The position numbers and the translations under genes were made by a program. From IMG/VR virus record IMGVR_UViG_3300025030_000191, positions 1-44,736 of that record: 44,736 nt of DNA. One strand, 5' to 3'. Shown here piece after piece: positions 1 through 25,990 of this stretch. Within the stretch, counting starts at the first letter, position 1. The number at the start of each line of letters is the position of its first letter. The notes under the pieces were generated by a model that did no database searches, was not told the origin of the DNA, and saw nothing but the letters and a program-made list of their open reading frames with translations. The DNA comes from a virus.

Positions 1-1315
1 TACGAGAAATTTTCAACTTGGATTTTACAGTGTAGTAAACATCCCAATGGTATAAATCACCATACCCAGGAAATGGGATATTATAATGCAAAGCTTTTGC
101 ACGCATATATGGAAAATCGAAACCTGTATTATGACATGGATAACCCTCTACAATATAAGTACCTGTAGAAGTTCCTAGACCACAAACCTCCATATTACCT
201 ACAGGAGTAATAGATACTATCTCCGTTTGCTCAACAATCGGCAGTATACCCAGCTTTTCTATGTCCAATTTAAAAAGTTTACTGGGCCTAATCTCCCCAA
301 GAAACTTTAATTTGTCCGCTTTTGAGCCTGTAATTGTAATAACATGCTGATCCCCATGTTGCGGATCATATTTTCTAGTTGTAAATTCATAACCTAAACG
401 TTCAAGTGCCTCACAATAACTATCATAGGTCGCCTTATTAACAACACTATTTTGGGAAGCATTTATCATGAGATTCCACTGTTCCATGTCTCTATCATCA
501 TGCTTAGCAGCTTGTGAAATACTACCCTCTCCATCAAAAAACCCAGAAACGTAACCAGCATCCTTCTCTTTTGACTCTTCCCATACGTCGAATACCTTTG
601 TTAGGGTATTTATTTTATTATTAAAATGCAGCAATTGGCCGGTGGTTCTCCATACCCAAGTCTTGTGACGTTGTACCAACCAGGGATGGTCCTCAGTAGC
701 AATAATGGTTTTTCCGTTTTTAAACTTAATTTCAAAAACAGGTTTTTCAACTGGGATATTGCCCACCACGGTACTTTTTCGAATAAGCCTATTCCGCCGC
801 CCCTCCACAGCTTCCTCATCAAAGCCTACAACCTCATCACCTGGAACAAGTTCTTCAACGTTTCTCCAAGTTAAGTCCGCCATTAGAATCTTATGTCCCG
901 GAGTTACGCAACTATAATATCCGACAATAATATCATAATTACTAAGGGCAGCCACAAACTCTTCAACAAGACGTCGATCCTGCGTACCATTAAACAACTC
1001 TTCTTTAGTAACTACTGCGCAATCATACCTTTTCTCACCCTTTGATTTAATTACCCAGGAAAGTACAGTACCAAAATCCGCGTTCAGGTTATCGGTTTCA
1101 ATATCAAAATAGCCGACCCGAGTGCCGGGAACCTTGTACCAGGGAATACCCGTCTTTTTCTCAAATTGTTTAGCGTCTAAACGCTCACCACCATTCTTGA
1201 TCTTAATAAGACCACGAGCAAAACAACTCTTGTGATCCGGCCAACGATGACGGTGAATACACGTAACATCTCCATAAGTCTCAATTACCTTTTGAATCTC
1301 ACTCTCAGAATACAT
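1..1315 (-). CDS. DEDD-family 3'-5' exonuclease / RNase H-like protein, intein-split, partial at left edge
   Basis: The reading frame starts at ATG 1315, five bases after TAAGGAG (1321-1327), and stays open to base 1 (438 codons). The N-extein (residues 1-135) carries the ExoI motif YFDIET, and removing the intein rebuilds the ExoII motif as VGYYS-TGFDFPYM. These are the first two metal-binding motifs of the DEDD exonuclease superfamily (DnaQ, PolB exonuclease domain, RNase_H_2/YprB group). ExoIII and the C-terminus lie outside the window, so the subtype and any fused polymerase domain cannot be judged. It is the most distal visible gene of the leftward replication operon, one base after the HTH gene. 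It probably trims DNA during replication or recombination; the phage polymerase has its own exonuclease domain. Recognition of the fold is confident; the precise substrate is unknown. Confidence 0.85.
   Translation of the reverse strand, partial: MYSESEIQKVIETYGDVTCIHRHRWPDHKSCFARGLIKIKNGGERLDAKQFEKKTGIPWYKVPGTRVGYFDIETDNLNADFGTVLSWVIKSKGEKRYDCAVVTKEELFNGTQDRRLVEEFVAALSNYDIIVGYYSCVTPGHKILMADLTWRNVEELVPGDEVVGFDEEAVEGRRNRLIRKSTVVGNIPVEKPVFEIKFKNGKTIIATEDHPWLVQRHKTWVWRTTGQLLHFNNKINTLTKVFDVWEESKEKDAGYVSGFFDGEGSISQAAKHDDRDMEQWNLMINASQNSVVNKATYDSYCEALERLGYEFTTRKYDPQHGDQHVITITGSKADKLKFLGEIRPSKLFKLDIEKLGILPIVEQTEIVSITPVGNMEVCGLGTSTGTYIVEGYPCHNTGFDFPYMRAKALHYNIPFPGYGDLYHWDVYYTVKSKLKISR
128..910 (-). 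mobile_element. Intein (261 aa) with LAGLIDADG-type endonuclease motif, inside the exonuclease ExoII motif
   Basis: In frame with the exonuclease, residues 136-396. It begins with Cys1 (TGC at 910-908; block A starts CVTPGHKILM), has a block B T-x-x-H motif (ATEDHPW), and ends with the block F/G signature YIVEGYPCHN followed by Thr as the +1 extein residue. The centre holds one clear LAGLIDADG-type motif, AGYVSGFFDGEGS; I see no second good copy, so the endonuclease may act as a dimer or be degenerate. The insertion separates GYYS from TGFDFPYM, with the catalytic Asp three residues after the junction, so splicing should be required for exonuclease activity. The splicing residues Cys1, block B His, penultimate His, Asn and +1 Thr are all intact. 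Confidence 0.9.
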
Positions 1316-3617: not shown

Positions 3618-4901
3618 CTAGTCCTCATAAATAATATTACTTTCATCAATGAATTTCAACATAACAGTTCCTACTGGTCCATTACGTTGTTTTCGGATAA
3701 TATTTTCAATGATACCCTTATGCTTACTCTCACGATTATAATACTCATCTCGGTAAAGCATAATCACATTATCCGCATCTTCTTCGAGATTACCACTCTG
3801 ACGTAAATCCGCAAGAGTTGGCCGTTTATCATCCCTGGATTCTAGTGAGCGGTTTAATTGTGATACAACCACACTAGTAATTCCCAACTCATTAGCTAAA
3901 AGCTTTACGCCACGAGAGATCCTCCCCAACTCATGGGTTGCTTCTGTACTACGTTCAGCCATCAACTGAATATAATCAAGGTAGGTAACAGACAGGTCGT
4001 TATTTTTCTTTAGTTTCCTAACAGTAGATGTGTAGTAGTCAATATCGGCGGAGTAGTTTGAGTCTACAACAATCTTTAAATCTCTTAGACGCTTAGTAGC
4101 TTCAAAAATAGCATCTACTTCTTTTTGATTAAGATTGCCAAAACGAATTTTACTAATTGAAATACCAGTCTCTATAGCAAGCATACGTTCGATCAAAACT
4201 TTTTTTGGCATCTCTAGTGAGAAGATCGCAACAGAGCTACCAGCTTTTGCTGTTTTTAATGCCGAGTTGCAAATCCATGCGCTCTTTCCCATCGAGGACC
4301 TTGCGGCGACAATCCAAACCTCGCCTTTTCCAAAACCGCCCGTAGTCAAATCTAAACTCTGAAAACCAGTAGTCAGACCGGGCATTTTTCCACCGGCAGC
4401 AACCCGCTCCTGGATATCTCCATAAGCAGCGGTTAGGATATCACTAAAATCTGTTAGATCTTCTTTACCATGTGCTGTAGCTAAATTATCCAGAGTACGG
4501 CGAATTTGTGACAGTGCTAAATCTACCCCACCAGCTTGTACAGTATTTTGTGCATCTGTAGCAGCTTGGATTAGTGATCTTCCGCGATAAGAATCAATAA
4601 CTAAATTCTCATAGAAACTAATATTATCTTCTGGATAAGAAGCATTATATAAGTAAGTAAGTAATTGTTCTCCACCAACCTGTGGGAGCATCCCCGTACT
4701 TTCCATGTAACTTCTCAAGATCGGAAAAGAAGCTGCATTCCCGTCTGCATTAAGATCTGCTATGGATTGGAAAATCATCTCGTAATTCTTAGTTGCAAAC
4801 ATTCCATGCCGTAACCCAGTAAGTTCATAATACTTACTGGGATTCTTTAGTATAATGCTTAGAACAGCGATTTCAGCGTCGTGATTAAAAAGCTCACTCA
4901 T
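3618..4901 (-). CDS. dnaB: Replicative DNA helicase, DnaB family
   Basis: 427 aa. The N-terminal domain (HDAEIAVLSIILKNP, residues 7-21) is typical of DnaB. The RecA-like motor has Walker A ARSSMGKSAW at about residues 200-209, a FSLEMPKK motif, Walker B LSVTYLDYIQLM at about 305-316, the sensor stretch ITSVVVSQLNRSLE, and DLRQSGNLEEDADNVIMLYR before the C-terminus. It unwinds duplex DNA 5' to 3' at the phage fork. It is slightly shorter than E. coli DnaB (471 aa) but complete. It overlaps the small upstream gene by 8 bp, so the two products are made together. I see no intein here, although DnaB is a common intein host. Confidence 0.97.
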   Translation of the reverse strand: MSELFNHDAEIAVLSIILKNPSKYYELTGLRHGMFATKNYEMIFQSIADLNADGNAASFPILRSYMESTGMLPQVGGEQLLTYLYNASYPEDNISFYENLVIDSYRGRSLIQAATDAQNTVQAGGVDLALSQIRRTLDNLATAHGKEDLTDFSDILTAAYGDIQERVAAGGKMPGLTTGFQSLDLTTGGFGKGEVWIVAARSSMGKSAWICNSALKTAKAGSSVAIFSLEMPKKVLIERMLAIETGISISKIRFGNLNQKEVDAIFEATKRLRDLKIVVDSNYSADIDYYTSTVRKLKKNNDLSVTYLDYIQLMAERSTEATHELGRISRGVKLLANELGITSVVVSQLNRSLESRDDKRPTLADLRQSGNLEEDADNVIMLYRDEYYNRESKHKGIIENIIRKQRNGPVGTVMLKFIDESNIIYED

Positions 4902-10638: not shown

Positions 10639-11335
10639 AAAGCATTACACAGATAAACGATATTCCAAACGGGTCAGAAATCTCAAACAATATAGAGATC
10701 TTTCTGACGTAGAATTTGATGAAAAGATGGCCGAGTATGAAATGAATGCTCAACCGTCTATGACGTTAGAAAGACGGATTGATGCCAAGCTTTCCTCTTT
10801 CACCGAAGACTATGATCTTACTGATCTTAAGATTAATGATCAATTAGTTCTCCGGGCACTTATTCAGGCCATTCTTCAGCTTGAAGATCTCGAGCAAGTT
10901 AACAATAATATTCGTGGTATGGGCGTATCTTTAGATAATATTACCATACTCCGTGAGTTGAATAACATGATGTCTTCTCTACGGAAAGATATTTCCTCCA
11001 TGCAGGAAGATCTTAAAATCACCCGTAGGCACCGTAAAGGTGATAAAGAGCAGAGTGTTATCAACTATCTTGAGGATCTTAAAATCAAGGCAAAAGAGTT
11101 TTACAAATCTCGGATGGCCTACGTTTACTGTCCGGAATGTAAAATGCTTTTAGGTACGGTGTGGTTTAACTACCCAGAAAGTAAGAAGACGGTTTTGAAA
11201 TTTAAATGTGAACACGATCTCCCGTCTTCTGATGGTAAAGTTACTAAGTGTGGTACATACGTTGAAGTTACCCCGGTAGAATTAATGGAAAAAGGTGGAA
11301 CAAATATTACCAATGTCCCAGAAACATTCAAATAA
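10622..11335 (+). CDS. Coiled-coil protein with C-terminal zinc ribbon, hypothetical
   Basis: 237 aa from GTG 10622, preceded by AAAGGGAG. The N-terminus is charged, residues about 65-150 are strongly helical and coiled-coil-like (LRALIQAILQLEDLEQVNNN, LNNMMSSLRKDISSMQEDLK), and the C-terminal domain has CPEC, then CEHD and CGTY cysteines that look like a zinc ribbon. A small terminase subunit is expected somewhere before the large one, and a helical DNA-binding protein of this size would be a candidate, but the glycan cassette intervenes and I see no terminase-specific motif. Confidence 0.6.
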   Translation: MPEETEKHYTDKRYSKRVRNLKQYRDLSDVEFDEKMAEYEMNAQPSMTLERRIDAKLSSFTEDYDLTDLKINDQLVLRALIQAILQLEDLEQVNNNIRGMGVSLDNITILRELNNMMSSLRKDISSMQEDLKITRRHRKGDKEQSVINYLEDLKIKAKEFYKSRMAYVYCPECKMLLGTVWFNYPESKKTVLKFKCEHDLPSSDGKVTKCGTYVEVTPVELMEKGGTNITNVPETFK

Positions 11336-12224
11336 GGTTTTATTCGCTGGTGGGGGGAGAAGGGTTGCCCTGTCTAAAAGATTTCTCTCTTCTGGCTTTT
11401 CCGTAGAAGGATATGAATTAGATCCACGTTGTCCACTAGCTAATGTTGGAACTGTTCATAAAGGCTACGCTTGGGGAGATCCGCGTTTCAGAGTTGACTT
11501 TCTTAATCTCTTGGAAGTTGGTAATTTTGATCTTGTTATCCCACTTCAAGATGCTGCTGTAGCTATGCTCTCTTCTTTTGTCTTACCAAATCTAGTGTGT
11601 TCAGAAGAAGAAGCAGCGGAGACTTGCTTGGATAAAGGGAAGTTTGAAGATTTTATGTTACAGAATTTCCCACACATTTATCCAAAAATAGTTCGAAGTA
11701 GTTTTCCGGTTATTGCAAAACCGATTCGTGGTTTCGCTTCTCAAGACTTGCATAAGGTCTACAACTATGATGATCTACAGCACTTTTCTAAGAACCCGAA
11801 CTATGTTATCCAGAATTTTGTATTTGGTACTGAGTATTCGGTAGATTCTTACTTTAGTCCTTTAGGTGTTTGGTATGGTTCTGTACCTCGTATTCGTAGC
11901 AGGGTTAGTGGTGGAGAAGTAATCTCAAGTGAGACAGTCTCCTTCCCGGAACTTGTTCACCTTACAAAGAGAGTGAGTACGCTTATGGGACTTACTGGAC
12001 CAACTAATACCCAGTTTATTGTTTCCCAAGATGGGGAAATCTTTATGACAGAAATCAATGCTCGATTTGGTGGTGGTTGCACTCTTTCAATGGAGGCGGG
12101 GTTAGATGTCCTATCCTACTTAAAGATGGATTATTTAGATGGGCCCGAGGTTGATCCCATCTTAGGTGGATATAAAGTAGGTTTAAAATTAGAAAGAAGT
12201 CACCGTGACCACTTCTTTAACTAG
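11313..12224 (+). CDS. ATP-grasp family ligase (carbamoyl-phosphate-synthase-like fold)
   Basis: 303 aa from ATG 11313; an upstream GTG at 11295 overlaps the only purine-rich site and is less likely. Pre-ATP-grasp Rossmann-like start VLFAGGGRRVALSKRFLSSG, then DLVIPLQDAAVAML, ATP-binding PVIAKPIRGFAS, YVIQNFVFGTEYSVDSYF, and the metal-binding end MTEINARFGGG. Family members join a carboxylate to an amine or other nucleophile using ATP. Next to a HAD protein, sugar methyltransferases and an aminotransferase, it may add an amide-linked group to a glycan. The substrate cannot be read from the sequence. Confidence 0.85.
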   Translation: MSQKHSNKVLFAGGGRRVALSKRFLSSGFSVEGYELDPRCPLANVGTVHKGYAWGDPRFRVDFLNLLEVGNFDLVIPLQDAAVAMLSSFVLPNLVCSEEEAAETCLDKGKFEDFMLQNFPHIYPKIVRSSFPVIAKPIRGFASQDLHKVYNYDDLQHFSKNPNYVIQNFVFGTEYSVDSYFSPLGVWYGSVPRIRSRVSGGEVISSETVSFPELVHLTKRVSTLMGLTGPTNTQFIVSQDGEIFMTEINARFGGGCTLSMEAGLDVLSYLKMDYLDGPEVDPILGGYKVGLKLERSHRDHFFN

Positions 12225-13482: not shown

Positions 13483-14149
13483 TAGGATGATATATCATGG
13501 GCATGGGGTTCCCCCATTAGATGAGGTGTTATATACCAATTACTTTCATGATATAGTTGGAAGTGAGAACGTAGCTATAGAGTGTGGTGCAGCTAATTTC
13601 GGGATATCTACTTATATATTCGAGAAATACTTTGGCTGGGCGTGCATGAATTTGGAAGCATCTAAGTATGCCTTTAAGCAGCTAGAAGAAAATAGAGTTT
13701 TAGCTTGTAACTATAATATCGCTCTTTCTAATAAGGATGGTACGGCTATTTTTAGAGATATAGTGTCTGCTCCGGGTGGGGGTAATGACAATGGTTCTCT
13801 TACACACACAGAGGCCCACCTAAAGGAGTTAAAAGGGTATGGCTGTGTGTTTGATGAGTATGCCGTTACGACTGTAACCTATAAGACCCTAATCTCGATG
13901 CCTGTTAGATTACTTGTGCTTGATATAGAAGGACATGAATTACAAGCTATATGGGGGATGTCCGGCTCTGCTTTTCTCCCACAGGTCGTGTGTGTAGAGT
14001 ACCCCATAAGTGGTTTTGATAATATATTTAATGCTATGACTTCATTAGGATATAAATATAATTTTACAAGTTGCAATAATGCTTATTACTCATTTATAGA
14101 AAAGGATAGCTGGTTTGGGGCAACAGAAAGAATGAAGGACATACAATGA
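13475..14149 (+). CDS. FkbM-family SAM methyltransferase
   Basis: 224 aa from ATG 13475 (a second in-frame ATG at 13487 is possible; a longer start would overlap the previous gene by almost 100 bp). Motif I is VAIECGAANFGISTYIF, the adenosine-binding strand is CMNLEAS, and LLVLDIEGHELQAIWG is the typical FkbM post-motif. These enzymes usually O-methylate sugars or polyketides. Isoleucine is frequently ATA in this gene, while neighbours mostly use ATT, which hints at separate acquisition. Its job is probably methylation of the glycan built by the adjacent enzymes. Confidence 0.8.
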   Translation: MDSRMIYHGHGVPPLDEVLYTNYFHDIVGSENVAIECGAANFGISTYIFEKYFGWACMNLEASKYAFKQLEENRVLACNYNIALSNKDGTAIFRDIVSAPGGGNDNGSLTHTEAHLKELKGYGCVFDEYAVTTVTYKTLISMPVRLLVLDIEGHELQAIWGMSGSAFLPQVVCVEYPISGFDNIFNAMTSLGYKYNFTSCNNAYYSFIEKDSWFGATERMKDIQ

Positions 14150-15246
14150 TCCCCGTTTATAAACCATACTTTTATGGAAATGAAAAGAAATATGTTACCC
14201 AAGCGATTGAATCCTCTTGGGTTTCTTCCTCTGGGTATTTCCTCGACAAGGCCGAAGAAATTCTCAAAGATTATTTAGGTGTTAAATACCTACTCCTGAC
14301 ATCAAACGGAACCACTGCTATGCACTTGGTTGCCCTTGCTCTCCGCGATAAAACGGGTGCTACTGAAATTATTGCCCCGAATAGCGTTTATGTAGCTGCA
14401 TGGAATAGCTTACGGTTTACTACACCCTTTTTGATGTACGTTACAGATACAGACTTAGATACCTGGAACTACCCAGAAGAAGAACTCCGACAAAATATCT
14501 ACCGAGCAAATGCTTGCTTAGTAGTACATAATCTAGGAAACATAGTCAACGTTCCTGAACTAAAACGAAAGTATCCACATATAACCTTTATTGAGGACAG
14601 TTGTGAAGGCTTTGGGGGAACCTATGAAGGAAAAAAAGCAGGTACGGAATCTCTAGCTTCTGCCTATTCGTGGTATGCAAACAAATCCATTACCTCAGGG
14701 GAGGGTGGAGCATTTGTTACTAATGATGAGAAGTTATACATTTTAGCAAAGAAACGCCGGGGACAGGGCCAGTCTGAGACTCGTTTTGTACATGATATTC
14801 TAGGGTTTAATTACCGCCTTACAAACTTACAGGCTGCTTTATTAGTAGCTCAATTAGAGCAGCTTAGTAAAATCCAGGTACTCAAAGAATCTCGATACTT
14901 AAACTATAAGGATCTTATCGAATCTATTGGTAATCCTAAATTGGTTATTCAGAAAACAGCGGAGAATACTACCCATTCCAATTGGATGTTTGGTATAAGA
15001 GTTATTGGTAACCCAGGTTATCATGTTGCTGAGAAGTTCTTCCTTGACCGGGATATAGAAACAAGACCCTTCTTTTATCCTATAAGCTCTCACAAACACC
15101 TGAGAGGGTCTGCTAATAACTCCCCAAAAGCAAGTCTTCTACAAAAAGAAATTATTATTTTACCGTCCTACCCAGAACTTACTTTTAGGGAACAGCAGTA
15201 TGTAACCTCAGTCTTAGAAGAGTATGTAGATAAACATGTACCGTGA
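14146..15246 (+). CDS. DegT/DnrJ/EryC1 family PLP-dependent sugar aminotransferase
   Basis: 366 aa, a normal length. MIPVYKPYFYGNEKKYV is the family opening, LTSNGTTAMHLVALAL binds the PLP phosphate, FIEDSCEGFGGTYEG contains the cofactor-contacting Asp, and Lys180 in YSWYANKSITSGEGGA is the Schiff-base lysine. LGFNYRLTNLQAALL is also conserved. Such enzymes convert nucleotide-linked keto-sugars to amino sugars such as perosamine or QuiN. The keto-sugar precursor must come from the host or from genes outside the window, as no dehydratase is seen. It overlaps the FkbM gene by 4 bp. Confidence 0.93.
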   Translation: MIPVYKPYFYGNEKKYVTQAIESSWVSSSGYFLDKAEEILKDYLGVKYLLLTSNGTTAMHLVALALRDKTGATEIIAPNSVYVAAWNSLRFTTPFLMYVTDTDLDTWNYPEEELRQNIYRANACLVVHNLGNIVNVPELKRKYPHITFIEDSCEGFGGTYEGKKAGTESLASAYSWYANKSITSGEGGAFVTNDEKLYILAKKRRGQGQSETRFVHDILGFNYRLTNLQAALLVAQLEQLSKIQVLKESRYLNYKDLIESIGNPKLVIQKTAENTTHSNWMFGIRVIGNPGYHVAEKFFLDRDIETRPFFYPISSHKHLRGSANNSPKASLLQKEIIILPSYPELTFREQQYVTSVLEEYVDKHVP

Positions 15247-17001: not shown

Positions 17002-19715
17002 TGGCAATTAAGGAACTAGTATCTCAAGAAGATTTAGTATTCTATGAGATTATGAAAAACCCGGTCTTGTTTGGTGAGTTTGTATATAACATGGACCGGT
17101 TAGATAGAGAAGAGAAATTTGCTTTTACTGTATACCAAAAGGAATTTCTTCTTGATGTTAGTAACTACCAATCATTAGCCTGTGGTAGGGCAGTTGGAAA
17201 GTGCGTCCACGAGTCTGCTATGATTATGAACCCGGACACGGGAGAGTATCTTTCTGCTAAGGAATGGTATGAGTCCACGAGATTGCATAATATATTATCT
17301 ATTAACCAAGATTGGAAGCAGGAAGTAAATGAGTGCTTTGTTGAATATAATGGGACACAAGATTGCTATGAAATTGAAACTGATAAGGGTCTCAAAACAG
17401 TAGTAACCAAAGAACATCCGTTCCTAACAAATAGTGGGTTTGTTAACGCCGATAGGCTAGAGGTAGGTAACTACTTGGCCGTGGCTAAAAATACCCCATA
17501 TTTTGGGGTTGAGTCCGCAGATGATATAGAATATATAACTCTGGCACATTTTATTGCCGAGGGGACATATTACTGCGGATCTATAACTACGACAGAGCCG
17601 GAAGTTTTCGAAGATCTTAAGAAAATCGCGGAGTATTTTGGGTGTAACTTGCGTGTAAAGGATATAACATACTTTATCTCAAAAAAAGACCCGAAAATAA
17701 AAAACCAATACCTTAGCTTCTTATCTACTCATGGACTAAGATCATGTCATTCCTATGATAAGTTTGTACCAGAACTGGTTTTTAAATCAAAAAAAGGAAA
17801 AGTAGCATTATTCCTCAATAGGTTGTTTGGGGATGACGGTTGGTGCACAGCTAATGAGGTGGGCTACTGCTCTACTTCAGAAAGATTAGCACGGGATGTA
17901 CAACATCTTCTATTCAGGTTTGGGGTGTTCGCTTCATTAGCTTATAAAAAGAACCCCTATCTTGGTGCTTGGTGCCTTTCGATAAAAGGTGTGGAGAATG
18001 TTCAACTTTTCCGTGAAAATATTGGTATTTTTACAAAACGAAAATCTAAAAAGTTAGAAGAGCTTTTACAGTGGTATCTTACAGAAAAACCACATAACCA
18101 GGCAAAAGTATACCCAATACTGTCTTATAGAGCTTATAGAAAAACTCGATCACGGTCAACGGGGCACCTTAAATATTTTCCAACGGACGAAACCATTAAT
18201 AAGGTTGTAAATGTTGATGCTGAGCTTTCTAAGTTTATAAACGCTGATATAAACTGGGTGCGGGTAAAAAACATAAGGCTTGTGGAAAAACAAGAAACTT
18301 ATTCTATAACCGTTCCCCATAATAGTACACATCTAATTGATAATATTTGGTCACATAATACGGTCAGCCTATCAACGCTGATGATTTGGTATCTTGTATT
18401 TAATGTATTTCCAAACGATTATATCCTATATACAGTTCCTTCTAAGGTTCATCTGGAACCTGTGTTTACTAATCTTATTCGGTTATTCAGAAGTAATTCT
18501 TTTCTAAAACAATTCATTGAACCTCGGGGTGGTATTAACGGGTCAGATTATACAGTCAAACTGTTGAATCAAGCTACTCTTTTATGTCGTATTGCAGGAC
18601 AAAGTGGAACCGGTGCTAATGTAATTGGTTTACATACCCCGGTTATATTGTTAGATGAGAGTGGCTACTACGCCCACAGAGTTTTTCAGGAATTACAGCC
18701 CTCTTTGAATACTTTTACTCCTGGATTTAAACTTCTAACTTCAGGCGTACCTACTGGCCTACGAGAAGGAAATGTTCTTTACCATACCGATCAAGAAAAC
18801 TCAAGCTACTCTAAGCACAGGGTTTCCGCCCTTCAAAATCCACGTTTTTCTGAAGAAGATAGACAACGTGCTCTTGAACAATATGGTGGGGAAGATTCTG
18901 AAGATTACATTCATTTTGTTCTCGGGTTGCATGGAAAACCTGTATTTTCTCTCTTTGATCGTGGAGCTTTTGAGATTATTAATAACCCGGTTTATAAATT
19001 GGTTATTAATGGGTGGGAAATTTCTGAGAACATTGATGATTATATCACCCGTGCAAACTTAATCCCACAAATCCCAGACAAGTCTTATAAATGCATTATA
19101 GGGATTGACTTAGGTTATACGGAACCAACAGCAATTATTATTCTATATCAAGATGGCTACGGAAGAATTAAATTCCACGCTCGTATTACCCTAAATAAAG
19201 TATCCTACACCATTCAGGATCGGTTTATTGACCTTCTTGATTCTAAGTTTAAACCCTATATTATTGGTATAGATGAGGGTGGTGTTGGTAAGCCGGTTGT
19301 CCAAAGATTGAAAGAATCCTTAGACTATGCCCATAAGGATTATCATAAAAGACTGATACCGATCAATTTCTCTACTGCTATTGTTATGGGAACAAACTCA
19401 GATGGTGAGGAGATTAAAACTAAAACAAAACCCCTAGCTGTTTCAGTATTACAAGAATACGCTAATAACCATAAAGTCGTATTTTCTAGTACAGATTTTG
19501 AAATGGTTACGGAACTTGAGAGAATGACTTATTCTAAAACAGTAACTGGGGAAATTGTTTATAAAACGCTCACCGAGCGAGGAGGTAAGAAAGGCGAAGA
19601 CCACTTCACAGCAGCCCTCCTATGTGCGATACTAGCCTACTATCTAGTCCATGAAACTATGGACTTCACAAAAAAGCGACAGAAGCTAATGAAAAGCTCT
19701 TGGTTCGCAGGATAA
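17001..19715 (+). CDS. terL: Terminase large subunit, split by an intein
   Basis: 904 aa precursor; the joined exteins are 518 aa, the usual size. Walker A is ACGRAVGK (ending Lys67) joined after splicing to T454 VSLSTL. Walker B is VILLDESGYY near 548-557. The nuclease domain has IGIDLGYTEP (about 700), IGIDEGGVGKP (about 755) and GEDHFTAAL (about 865), matching the RNase-H-like active site of large terminases. It cuts and pumps phage DNA into the prohead through the portal encoded next. It starts one base inside the glycosyltransferase stop. The small subunit is not evident beside it. Confidence 0.95.
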   Translation: MAIKELVSQEDLVFYEIMKNPVLFGEFVYNMDRLDREEKFAFTVYQKEFLLDVSNYQSLACGRAVGKCVHESAMIMNPDTGEYLSAKEWYESTRLHNILSINQDWKQEVNECFVEYNGTQDCYEIETDKGLKTVVTKEHPFLTNSGFVNADRLEVGNYLAVAKNTPYFGVESADDIEYITLAHFIAEGTYYCGSITTTEPEVFEDLKKIAEYFGCNLRVKDITYFISKKDPKIKNQYLSFLSTHGLRSCHSYDKFVPELVFKSKKGKVALFLNRLFGDDGWCTANEVGYCSTSERLARDVQHLLFRFGVFASLAYKKNPYLGAWCLSIKGVENVQLFRENIGIFTKRKSKKLEELLQWYLTEKPHNQAKVYPILSYRAYRKTRSRSTGHLKYFPTDETINKVVNVDAELSKFINADINWVRVKNIRLVEKQETYSITVPHNSTHLIDNIWSHNTVSLSTLMIWYLVFNVFPNDYILYTVPSKVHLEPVFTNLIRLFRSNSFLKQFIEPRGGINGSDYTVKLLNQATLLCRIAGQSGTGANVIGLHTPVILLDESGYYAHRVFQELQPSLNTFTPGFKLLTSGVPTGLREGNVLYHTDQENSSYSKHRVSALQNPRFSEEDRQRALEQYGGEDSEDYIHFVLGLHGKPVFSLFDRGAFEIINNPVYKLVINGWEISENIDDYITRANLIPQIPDKSYKCIIGIDLGYTEPTAIIILYQDGYGRIKFHARITLNKVSYTIQDRFIDLLDSKFKPYIIGIDEGGVGKPVVQRLKESLDYAHKDYHKRLIPINFSTAIVMGTNSDGEEIKTKTKPLAVSVLQEYANNHKVVFSSTDFEMVTELERMTYSKTVTGEIVYKTLTERGGKKGEDHFTAALLCAILAYYLVHETMDFTKKRQKLMKSSWFAG
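17202..18359 (+). mobile_element. Intein (386 aa) with two LAGLIDADG motifs, inside the terminase Walker A
   Basis: Residues 68-453 of the terminase precursor. Block A begins with Cys68 (CVHESAMIMNPDTGEYLSA), block B is VVTKEHPFLTNSG, the C-end is THLIDNIWSHN with penultimate His and Asn453, and the +1 residue is Thr454. Two endonuclease motifs are visible, LAHFIAEGTYY and LFLNRLFGDDGW, so a monomeric LAGLIDADG homing endonuclease is likely. It splits the nucleotide-binding GK-T so packaging needs splicing. Isoleucine ATA codons are more frequent here than in the exteins. Confidence 0.95.
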
Positions 19716-19721
19716 CAAATT

Positions 19722-21227
19722 ATGGAACGAATAGAAAAAAGTCAGTTAGCTAAGGCACAATATAGCTTCATGACGTCTCCCAGCTCTACTCCGTGGGGTC
19801 CTCAAGACATAGATAAAATGGATTCGGCTCCGCACAAAAACTACGGAGAGGTAGTAAAGGAGTGCAGGTTCTTTTACAGAAAAGATCCAATTGCTGGTAC
19901 AGTTGTAGATAAACTAATTGAAATTGGTATTACGGATTTGGTCATCAGCAAGGGAAAACTTTCCCCGAATGAACTGAAAATCTTTACGGCTGTAAAGGAT
20001 AAGCTACAAGAGTTTGCTGAGACCTGTGCTGTTGAATATCTTTTAACCGGTTTAGTTTATCCCGAAGTAAAATTTGCAAGCCTTCCAACCTCTGATTTCA
20101 GAGAATACGGGATTAAGAAGATGTCTACCATCTCCGTCCCTGTTTCTATGTGGGTCAGAGACTCTTCGACAATTAAAATCAATTCCCCAGAACAATCAGA
20201 TATGCTGTCCTACTATCTAGTTGTTCCCGATAAGACCATCTTCTTTATTACAAATAAAGGTATGTATCCGGATGGTACTACAGATGTACCTTTGTACGAA
20301 AAATGGTTAAAATACTATCCAGTATTTGTAGCTGAGGTTCGTAAGGGAACTAAAGAATTCAAGCTAGAACCTGAATATACTGTATCTCGAAGAAAACCGC
20401 TGGCAGATAGTAGCTACCCAACGCCCTATCTCCATGCTGCACTTGAGAGTCTAAAACATAAACGAAACCTAAAAAGACTGGACTACTCCCTGGCAGCTAG
20501 GGCGATTGGTGCTATTCAGCAGTTCAAAGTTGGTAGTGATGATTTTCCAGTAACGGAAGACGAGTCGGAAACATTCCAGAGTCTGAAAGATCAGATGACC
20601 TATAGAAATTCTGGTGGACGCGATCTCGAGCGGATTTTCCAGTTGTTCACAAACCATACTGTAGAAATCAAGTGGGTCTATCCCCCATTGGAACCCATCC
20701 TAGATGATAAGAAATATATTGGTGTGAACGAAGATATTTTCTATTCTCTTGGATTTCCTCGGATTCTGACCACTGGCGAATCACAAAGATCTGGTACCTC
20801 AGAACCGGAATATGCTACTCTCTCTCCTGTAAAAACTATGAACAATATGCAGAGAAAGATTTTACAGATTATTAAAGATATTGTCAAAAGAATTGCTACC
20901 GAGAATAATCTTAGTGATTATCCGGAAGTTAGATTCAAACCCATTTCTCTGCATAGCTTTGTAAACTTTATCGAAGGTCTCCGTAATCTCTATGATACTG
21001 GAAACCTGAGCCGCTCGACTTATGTTGATGCTTTCGGCTATGTTTTCGAAGATGAAGCAAAGCAATTGAGTGATGATAAAGATACTATGAAAAGCTACGG
21101 GTTGGATGATTTCGCACCGAAACCATACTCCAATCAACCCGGAGCACCTAAACAACCAGAAACGCCGCAAGATAAGCCAAAAACGGCTGAAAACACTAAT
21201 AAAACGGCTGGAGTGAGCAATGAATAG
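19722..21227 (+). CDS. Portal protein
   Basis: 501 aa, directly after the large terminase and before the protease, the invariant portal position. CRFFYRKDPIAGTVVDKLIE is the portal-type N-terminal clip to stem segment, and YLHAALESLKHKRNLKRLDY with IGAIQQFKVG resembles the stem helices. The C-terminus is proline- and lysine-rich (QPGAPKQPETPQDKPKTAEN), likely flexible. Twelve copies should form the ring that receives the terminase and connects to the tail. It overlaps the protease gene by 8 bp. Confidence 0.85.
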   Translation: MERIEKSQLAKAQYSFMTSPSSTPWGPQDIDKMDSAPHKNYGEVVKECRFFYRKDPIAGTVVDKLIEIGITDLVISKGKLSPNELKIFTAVKDKLQEFAETCAVEYLLTGLVYPEVKFASLPTSDFREYGIKKMSTISVPVSMWVRDSSTIKINSPEQSDMLSYYLVVPDKTIFFITNKGMYPDGTTDVPLYEKWLKYYPVFVAEVRKGTKEFKLEPEYTVSRRKPLADSSYPTPYLHAALESLKHKRNLKRLDYSLAARAIGAIQQFKVGSDDFPVTEDESETFQSLKDQMTYRNSGGRDLERIFQLFTNHTVEIKWVYPPLEPILDDKKYIGVNEDIFYSLGFPRILTTGESQRSGTSEPEYATLSPVKTMNNMQRKILQIIKDIVKRIATENNLSDYPEVRFKPISLHSFVNFIEGLRNLYDTGNLSRSTYVDAFGYVFEDEAKQLSDDKDTMKSYGLDDFAPKPYSNQPGAPKQPETPQDKPKTAENTNKTAGVSNE

Positions 21228-24817: not shown

Positions 24818-25990
24818 GTGAAAAAAGTTTTGATTATTGCGGACAGCCCGTCAACTCCGACAGGCTTTAGTCAAGTTATTCATAATATCTTTAAGAACCT
24901 TACAAATAAATACGAGCTAATTCAGTTGGGTGTGAATTACTTTGGTGATCCACATGAAATTGAATGGCCTATCTACCCAGCCTCTATTCGAGGGGATATC
25001 TGGGGATTTAGTCGGATTCCGGAGCTCGTAGCGAAAAAGCCGGATTTGATTTTTATTTTGAATGATGTTTGGGTTATTGCCAAATATCTGAAGGAAATCA
25101 AGAAGGCATATGATAAACAGATTCTCCCGAACATTGTCGTTTATTTCCCCGTAGACTCGTCAGAATTTGACCCGGAGTGGTTCACCGATTTCGATATTGT
25201 GAATAGGGCGGTTGTTTATACAAAGTTCGGTTACGATGTTGTAAGGACAGCAGTTCCTCAAATGGAACTGGATATCGTTCCTCATGGGATCAATAAAAAG
25301 CACTTCTGCAAGTTGTTTAGAACTCAAGAAGAAAAGCAAGCCCTGAAGAAGATTCTGTACCCAGATCGGGAAGACTTTTACAACTCTTTTATTGTACTGA
25401 ATCGTAACCGAAACCAGCCTAGAAAGAAGATTGATGCTACTATTGAGGGCTTTGCACAATTTGCAAAGAATAAACCTGAGAATGTAAAACTCCATCTTCA
25501 TATGGGACTAAAGGATGCAGGATGGGATATCGCCAAACTTTGTAGACGTTTTGGTGTTGAAGAGCGTCTCATTGTAACAAACGGGACTCGACAAATACAA
25601 ACCGTCCCTGTTGCTAAACTTAACTTAATTGCAAATGCCTCGGACGTGGGTGTTAATACCTCCTTTGGCGAGGGTTGGGGTCTTTGTAATGCTGAAGATG
25701 CCTCCGTTGGGATTCCCCAAATTGTTCCAGATAACAGCGCATCTGCTGAATTGTTTAGAGATATTGGTCTACTGATTCCAATCTCTTTATGGACCCGTCA
25801 ACCGGATACTATGACCCTCGGTGGGTTAGTTTCTGCTGACGGGCTTGCTCAAAATCTTGAGGAACTTTATCAGCAACCGGGGTTATATGCCAATCTGGCA
25901 CTTCTATCAGAAGAGAAGTTTAATAATCCCATCTATGATTGGGAGAATGTCTCAGCTAGATTTGCTACAATTTTCGATGAGGTATTGTGA
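24818..25990 (+). CDS. GT4-family (GT-B fold) glycosyltransferase within the head module
   Basis: 390 aa from GTG 24818. The N-terminal half starts VLIIADSPSTPTGFSQVIHN, the donor domain has VLNRNRNQPRKKIDATIEGF and the late motif FGEGWGLCNAEDASVGIPQI, which contains the E-x7-E pair of GT4 retaining transferases (residues about 285-293). SASAELFRDIGLLIP closes the domain. It is inserted between connector genes, in the structural operon and overlapping the next gene by 4 bp, so it is expressed late. Sugar attachment to a virion protein is an attractive inference, unproven. Confidence 0.9.
   Translation: MKKVLIIADSPSTPTGFSQVIHNIFKNLTNKYELIQLGVNYFGDPHEIEWPIYPASIRGDIWGFSRIPELVAKKPDLIFILNDVWVIAKYLKEIKKAYDKQILPNIVVYFPVDSSEFDPEWFTDFDIVNRAVVYTKFGYDVVRTAVPQMELDIVPHGINKKHFCKLFRTQEEKQALKKILYPDREDFYNSFIVLNRNRNQPRKKIDATIEGFAQFAKNKPENVKLHLHMGLKDAGWDIAKLCRRFGVEERLIVTNGTRQIQTVPVAKLNLIANASDVGVNTSFGEGWGLCNAEDASVGIPQIVPDNSASAELFRDIGLLIPISLWTRQPDTMTLGGLVSADGLAQNLEELYQQPGLYANLALLSEEKFNNPIYDWENVSARFATIFDEVL

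Follow-up and report, generated by a model that had tools for sequence, protein, structure and literature searches.

What is an intein doing three residues ahead of a catalytic aspartate of a phage exonuclease, and does its presence there serve the phage or the element itself? The question is raised by the IMG/VR virus record IMGVR_UViG_3300025030_000191, of which positions 1 to 44,736 are here called the window. At the start of the window an open reading frame on the minus strand (1315..2) remains open across an in-frame element of 261 codons and then runs off the window edge. A preliminary description had identified the element as an intein within a DEDD exonuclease and had suggested that it might act as an on-switch for that enzyme. 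The reading favoured here, to which we assign a probability of about 0.9, is that a class 1 LAGLIDADG homing intein invaded the stand-alone DEDD exonuclease gene of this phage, from whose product it would splice out, and that it would home into intein-free alleles of the same gene.

Anatomy of the intein

The element (128..910, minus strand) begins with CVTPGHKIL, ends with GYPCHN and is followed by a threonine at position +1, and it carries the features expected of a class 1 intein, namely Cys1, a block B TEDH motif, the terminal His260-Asn261 pair and the +1 Thr. The NCBIfam model intein_Nterm (TIGR01445) matches residues 136-213 of the reading frame with 31.1 bits (cutoff 24.5), and the match starts exactly at residue 136, which is Cys1. 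Scores for the Pfam models Intein_splicing (25.5) and LAGLIDADG_3 (18.2) are significant, yet lie under the curated cutoffs. Among 36 relatives that align over the full length, taken from viral and a few bacterial genomes, Cys1, the block B His75 and the terminal HN are invariant; inteins related to this one reside in terminases, portal proteins, family A polymerases, RecA, a cytosine methylase and other proteins. A chance origin of the element was rejected, as these 36 relatives keep the splice residues and a natural empty allele exists. The delimitation given in the preliminary description, a 261-residue in-frame intein with Cys1, TxxH, HN, +1 Thr and a LAGLIDADG motif, is thus borne out by motifs, profile, relatives and empty allele alike.

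The N-terminal part of the splicing domain, with blocks A and B, occupies approximately residues 1-105 (596..910, minus strand), as judged from the TIGR01445 match and the strands of a structural model, and the C-terminal part, with blocks F and G and ending in TSTGTYIVEGYPCHN, spans residues 227-261 (128..232, minus strand), as judged from conservation and the same model. Between them lies the putative homing endonuclease part (residues 116-207; 290..565, minus strand), delimited by LAGLIDADG_3, phrog_5046 and DSSP, which in the model assigns helix 116-128, strands 129-132 and 148-154, helix 159-171, strands 176-180 and 188-193, and helix 197-207. This order corresponds to the alpha-beta-beta-alpha-beta-beta-alpha topology of a single LAGLIDADG half-domain. 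The motif sequence in the intein is GYVSGFFDGEGS, with VSGFFDGEG at residues 121-129 (524..550, minus strand) and Glu128 as the acidic residue; across the 36 relatives D126 and G129 of this motif are invariant, while G127 and E128 are at least 90% conserved. Known inteins with two LAGLIDADG motifs are longer, and a single unit would, by analogy with the LAGLIDADG family, imply a dimer. In the AlphaFold2 model of the intein (mean pLDDT 93.6), strands of the splicing domain lie at the two ends and a single LAGLIDADG unit is present, and a Foldseek search with the model retrieved solved endonuclease-bearing inteins, mini-inteins and hedgehog HINT domains, which points to a predicted HINT fold.

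Position 4 of block F is a cysteine instead of the usual aspartate, and this position varies freely among the 36 relatives. Class 3 inteins are without a nucleophile at position 1 and are marked by a W-C-T triplet; assignment to that class was rejected, given that Cys1 is present, that the block F cysteine is not conserved, and that the residue before the penultimate histidine is Cys, not Thr.

The host exonuclease

The N-extein (911..1315, minus strand) supplies exonuclease residues 1-135, matched by RNase_H_2 and phrog_403; it contains the ExoI motif FDIET, with D71 and E73, and ends in IIVGYYS. The C-extein (1..127, minus strand), cut by the window edge, starts with the +1 Thr of TGFDFPYM and places the ExoII aspartate at +4. 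Its remainder was taken from the near-identical contig G001 (IMGVR 3300025154_000294, locus L002), which is the source of the full-length gene and encodes a complete precursor of 504 amino acids, predicted to become 243 amino acids after splicing. Once the element is removed, RNase_H_2 gives a single unbroken match of 32.8 bits (cutoff 22), compared with 15.3 bits before, and with the exteins rejoined the score of phrog_403 (‘DNA polymerase exonuclease subunit’) is 45.3 bits, up from 24.8. The profile comparison proposed in the preliminary description, of the element and of the rejoined extein, therefore agrees with its assignment of the host to the DEDD exonucleases and with its placement of the intein between GYYS and TGFDFPYM, the catalytic ExoII aspartate being in the C-extein.

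All DEDD positions are present in the spliced sequence, in the motifs FDIET (ExoI), TGFD (ExoII) and HNLGD (ExoIII). The last of these (in the gene at L002:3001-4515) has a histidine in place of the tyrosine of the family's YNxxDV, as is also seen in L028, L088 and L185, and the HxxxD spacing of this sub-lineage is unlike that of the DEDDh enzymes. By sequence, the nearest solved relative is the exonuclease part of the Pyrobaculum family B DNA polymerase. L088, an intein-free homologue (56% identical), gives a model that matches the exonuclease domains of family B polymerases (best match 5mdn, E 1.7e-8). On this model the insertion point falls where the ExoII helix begins, three residues ahead of the catalytic aspartate. 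A tblastn search of phage records with the truncated extein gave no match at 1e-3, and the full 243 residues retrieved distant ‘DNA polymerase exonuclease subunit’ genes. A family A polymerase of the same phage has its own exo1 domain (SIDTET, HNAKYD, YSVLD), which looks intact, and for this reason the stand-alone enzyme is probably an accessory exonuclease, not the sole proofreader.

A natural empty allele and a co-conversion tract

In a second near-identical contig, G002 (IMGVR 3300025117_000213, locus L003), the same exonuclease has GYYS joined directly to TGFDFPYM. When the intein is removed from the window, the two sequences differ at 41 of 25,811 positions, and these differences are concentrated beside the insertion site, where 30 of 452 positions are mismatched (6.6%) versus 11 of 25,359 elsewhere (0.04%; binomial tail 5e-44), so that away from the exonuclease site the two phages are 99.96% identical. 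Of the 30 near-site differences, 28 form an upstream tract (911..1289, minus strand) and the remaining two, at 122 and 125, lie in the C-extein; the downstream side is visible for 52 bases, at which point the G002 contig ends. It stops where the intein-bearing and empty alleles regain identity, as is expected if both alleles were present in one sample. The codon differences in the N-extein comprise 23 synonymous and two non-synonymous changes, which argues for purifying selection on the exonuclease. An assembly artefact, in which intein-bearing reads were mis-joined to give an empty site, was rejected, as G002 and the intein-bearing allele differ in the bases to the left and to the right of the junction (TCT|ACC GGC and AGT|ACA GGT, respectively).

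The local divergence is best viewed as a co-conversion tract, left by recent homing of the intein or, less likely, by a reverse conversion to the empty state. The window and G001, which differ in other regions, have exactly the same intein-bearing allele; with these two contigs identical at the locus, a gain and a loss of the intein would look alike.

Inteins at the ExoII site of other viruses

The preliminary description had named failure of homologues to align across GYYS-TGFDF as the result that would speak against an intein. That result was not obtained: of approximately 80 intein-free viral loci, every one that is aligned over the site continues through it uninterrupted, mostly with the pattern [YH][NY][SGA]|xxFD. 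Besides G001, three more viral contigs carry inteins at this position. One (L028/L183) reads YYG|CLTPGH..SHN|TGFD and another (L185) HYG|CLTPGH..CHN|SDYRFD, while the third (L064/L195) ends inside the intein.

In a tree of 48 intein relatives, the three complete exonuclease-site inteins group together in a single clade with support of 94/77, recovered in 95% of bootstrap trees, although this support is moderate and the bootstrap had not fully settled. In the exonuclease tree, the carriers lie at separate places among intein-free lineages, with three changes. A single intein clade combined with scattered exteins points to a site-specific mobile family, and the exonuclease-site inteins would fit a family that is loyal to one site and mobile between phages.

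Three phage family A polymerases (L178, L179 and L181) have an ExoII motif that reads SHNTGFD without any intein and thereby mimics an intein C-terminus. As a scan of the DNA showed this sequence to be natural in the exonucleases of phage family A polymerases, an HN-TGFD motif proves nothing by itself, and the case made for the window rests on the whole element.

Inteins and other variable regions elsewhere in the phages

The large terminase gene of the window phage (17001-19715, plus strand) contains a second intein (17202..18359, plus strand), inserted in the Walker A motif as GRAVGK|C..HN|T. The G002 terminase is identical to that of the window and has this intein as well. In the G001 terminase (C1:26825-30784) the Walker A site is empty, and two other inteins are found, one following LLDE and the other HFV. 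G001 and the window are more divergent around the terminase intein sites. That four intein sites, one in the exonuclease gene and three in the terminase gene, are variously filled or empty among phages this similar implies recent turnover. Given also the conversion tract at the exonuclease site, it seems reasonably probable that inteins have been caught here in the act of spreading through a wild population of otherwise nearly identical phages, the Walker A intein having been swapped, through gene conversion, for the other two of the terminase.

Two patches in the window diverge from G001: one at 19397-21095, mostly in the portal gene, has 95 differences amid near identity elsewhere, and the other, at the start of a DnaB-like helicase gene (4782-4878), has nine in 97 bases. 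The phage genes of the window are also interspersed with genes for an ATP-grasp enzyme, an aminotransferase and a glycosyltransferase (11295-12224, 14146-15246 and 24818-25990, respectively), perhaps a set for glycan or small-molecule modification.

The proposed homing cycle and its alternatives

If the intein behaves as its sequence suggests, translation would yield the 504-residue precursor, from which the intein would splice itself out in the standard manner: an N-S acyl shift at Cys1, transfer to the +1 Thr, and cyclisation of Asn261. The rejoining of GYYS to TGFDF would restore the ExoII region and yield an active exonuclease of 243 residues. In a cell infected by both kinds of phage, the single LAGLIDADG half-domain, presumably in dimeric form, would make a double-strand break in the uninterrupted ExoII codons of the intein-free genome; repair of this break from a divergent intein-bearing copy would install the intein along with flanking DNA, leaving a co-conversion tract. 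The straightforward reading of the locus would then be a selfish homing intein whose splicing is required for exonuclease function.

That requirement is where the suggestion of an on-switch has its appeal: the intein, sited where the ExoII helix begins, parts the ExoI half of the enzyme from the ExoII aspartate, and an unspliced precursor would probably be inactive, so that conditional splicing could confine exonuclease activity to a certain time or stress of infection. We nevertheless consider such regulation very improbable, and this part of the preliminary description found no support. A phage 99.96% identical away from the site does without the intein, as do most related exonucleases; the distribution and the co-conversion tract match a selfish mobile element; the phage polymerase has its own proofreading domain; and no sensing or regulatory feature was indicated in the present analysis. 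Even less credible is a decaying insertion that no longer splices and leaves this phage with a non-functional exonuclease. The cysteine at block F position 4 might be taken as a sign of decay, splicing being deduced from sequence, but that position is freely variable in the family, every splice-junction residue is kept, the frame is open, and the extein codon changes are almost all synonymous (23 versus 2).

A homing intein might also have lost its endonuclease while still splicing, in which case it would be kept by descent, and the divergence around it would reflect recombination of the kind common in phages, with the empty allele included by chance. The further recombined patches in these genomes (in the helicase and portal genes) lend this idea some substance, yet we regard it as unlikely. 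The LAGLIDADG acidic residues (Asp/Glu) and the predicted fold are intact, the tract lies at the exonuclease site itself in a pair of phages that are otherwise almost identical, and the intein-bearing allele is shared exactly by the window and G001 in spite of their differences elsewhere.

Relation to known inteins

Homing inteins are a well-known type of element, and their occurrence in genes for phage replication and packaging is amply documented (PMC5050341). The ExoII insertion site of a DEDD exonuclease was not found as an intein site in the open-licence papers searched, nor was an exonuclease-borne copy of this intein found among the phage records searched. The preliminary description, which named no earlier intein at this site, is in line with that literature; the three further viral contigs show that the site is nevertheless occupied in other viruses. 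The active site of DEDD exonucleases may thus be added to the places that inteins occupy. Moreover, turnover of inteins is usually inferred from distant relatives, and here it is seen between almost identical wild phages. The most useful feature of the system is the natural pair with and without the intein, which differs in little else and makes homing, the cost of splicing and the effect on the exonuclease directly testable.

The closest parallels are the portal inteins of Gordonia phages (Anamika, MG099935) and the terminase inteins of Mycobacterium C1 phages (LRRHood, GQ303262), which belong to the same single-LAGLIDADG family. Over its full length the window intein is 33.8% identical to the former and 30.5% to the latter, and all three have Cys1, FDGEG or MDGEG, and an end of the form TST.T..G..HN, but the host proteins and insertion sites differ. 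The C1 mycobacteriophages also offer a phage exonuclease gene with an intein, that of a RecB/Cas4-like enzyme (PMC5050341); it is, however, of the unrelated PD-(D/E)XK type and has neither the DEDD fold nor an ExoII motif. The usual intein sites of family B polymerases are polymerase motifs and not ExoII. Such inteins, exemplified by that of Mimivirus (PMC549080), reside in proteins whose exonuclease domain is related to the window's host enzyme, although the latter stands alone. Finally, an archaeal helicase gene with several close intein sites that vary in presence and absence resembles the terminase of these phages; the helicase inteins have been tested in vivo, whereas the terminase case is known from the sequence of three contigs.
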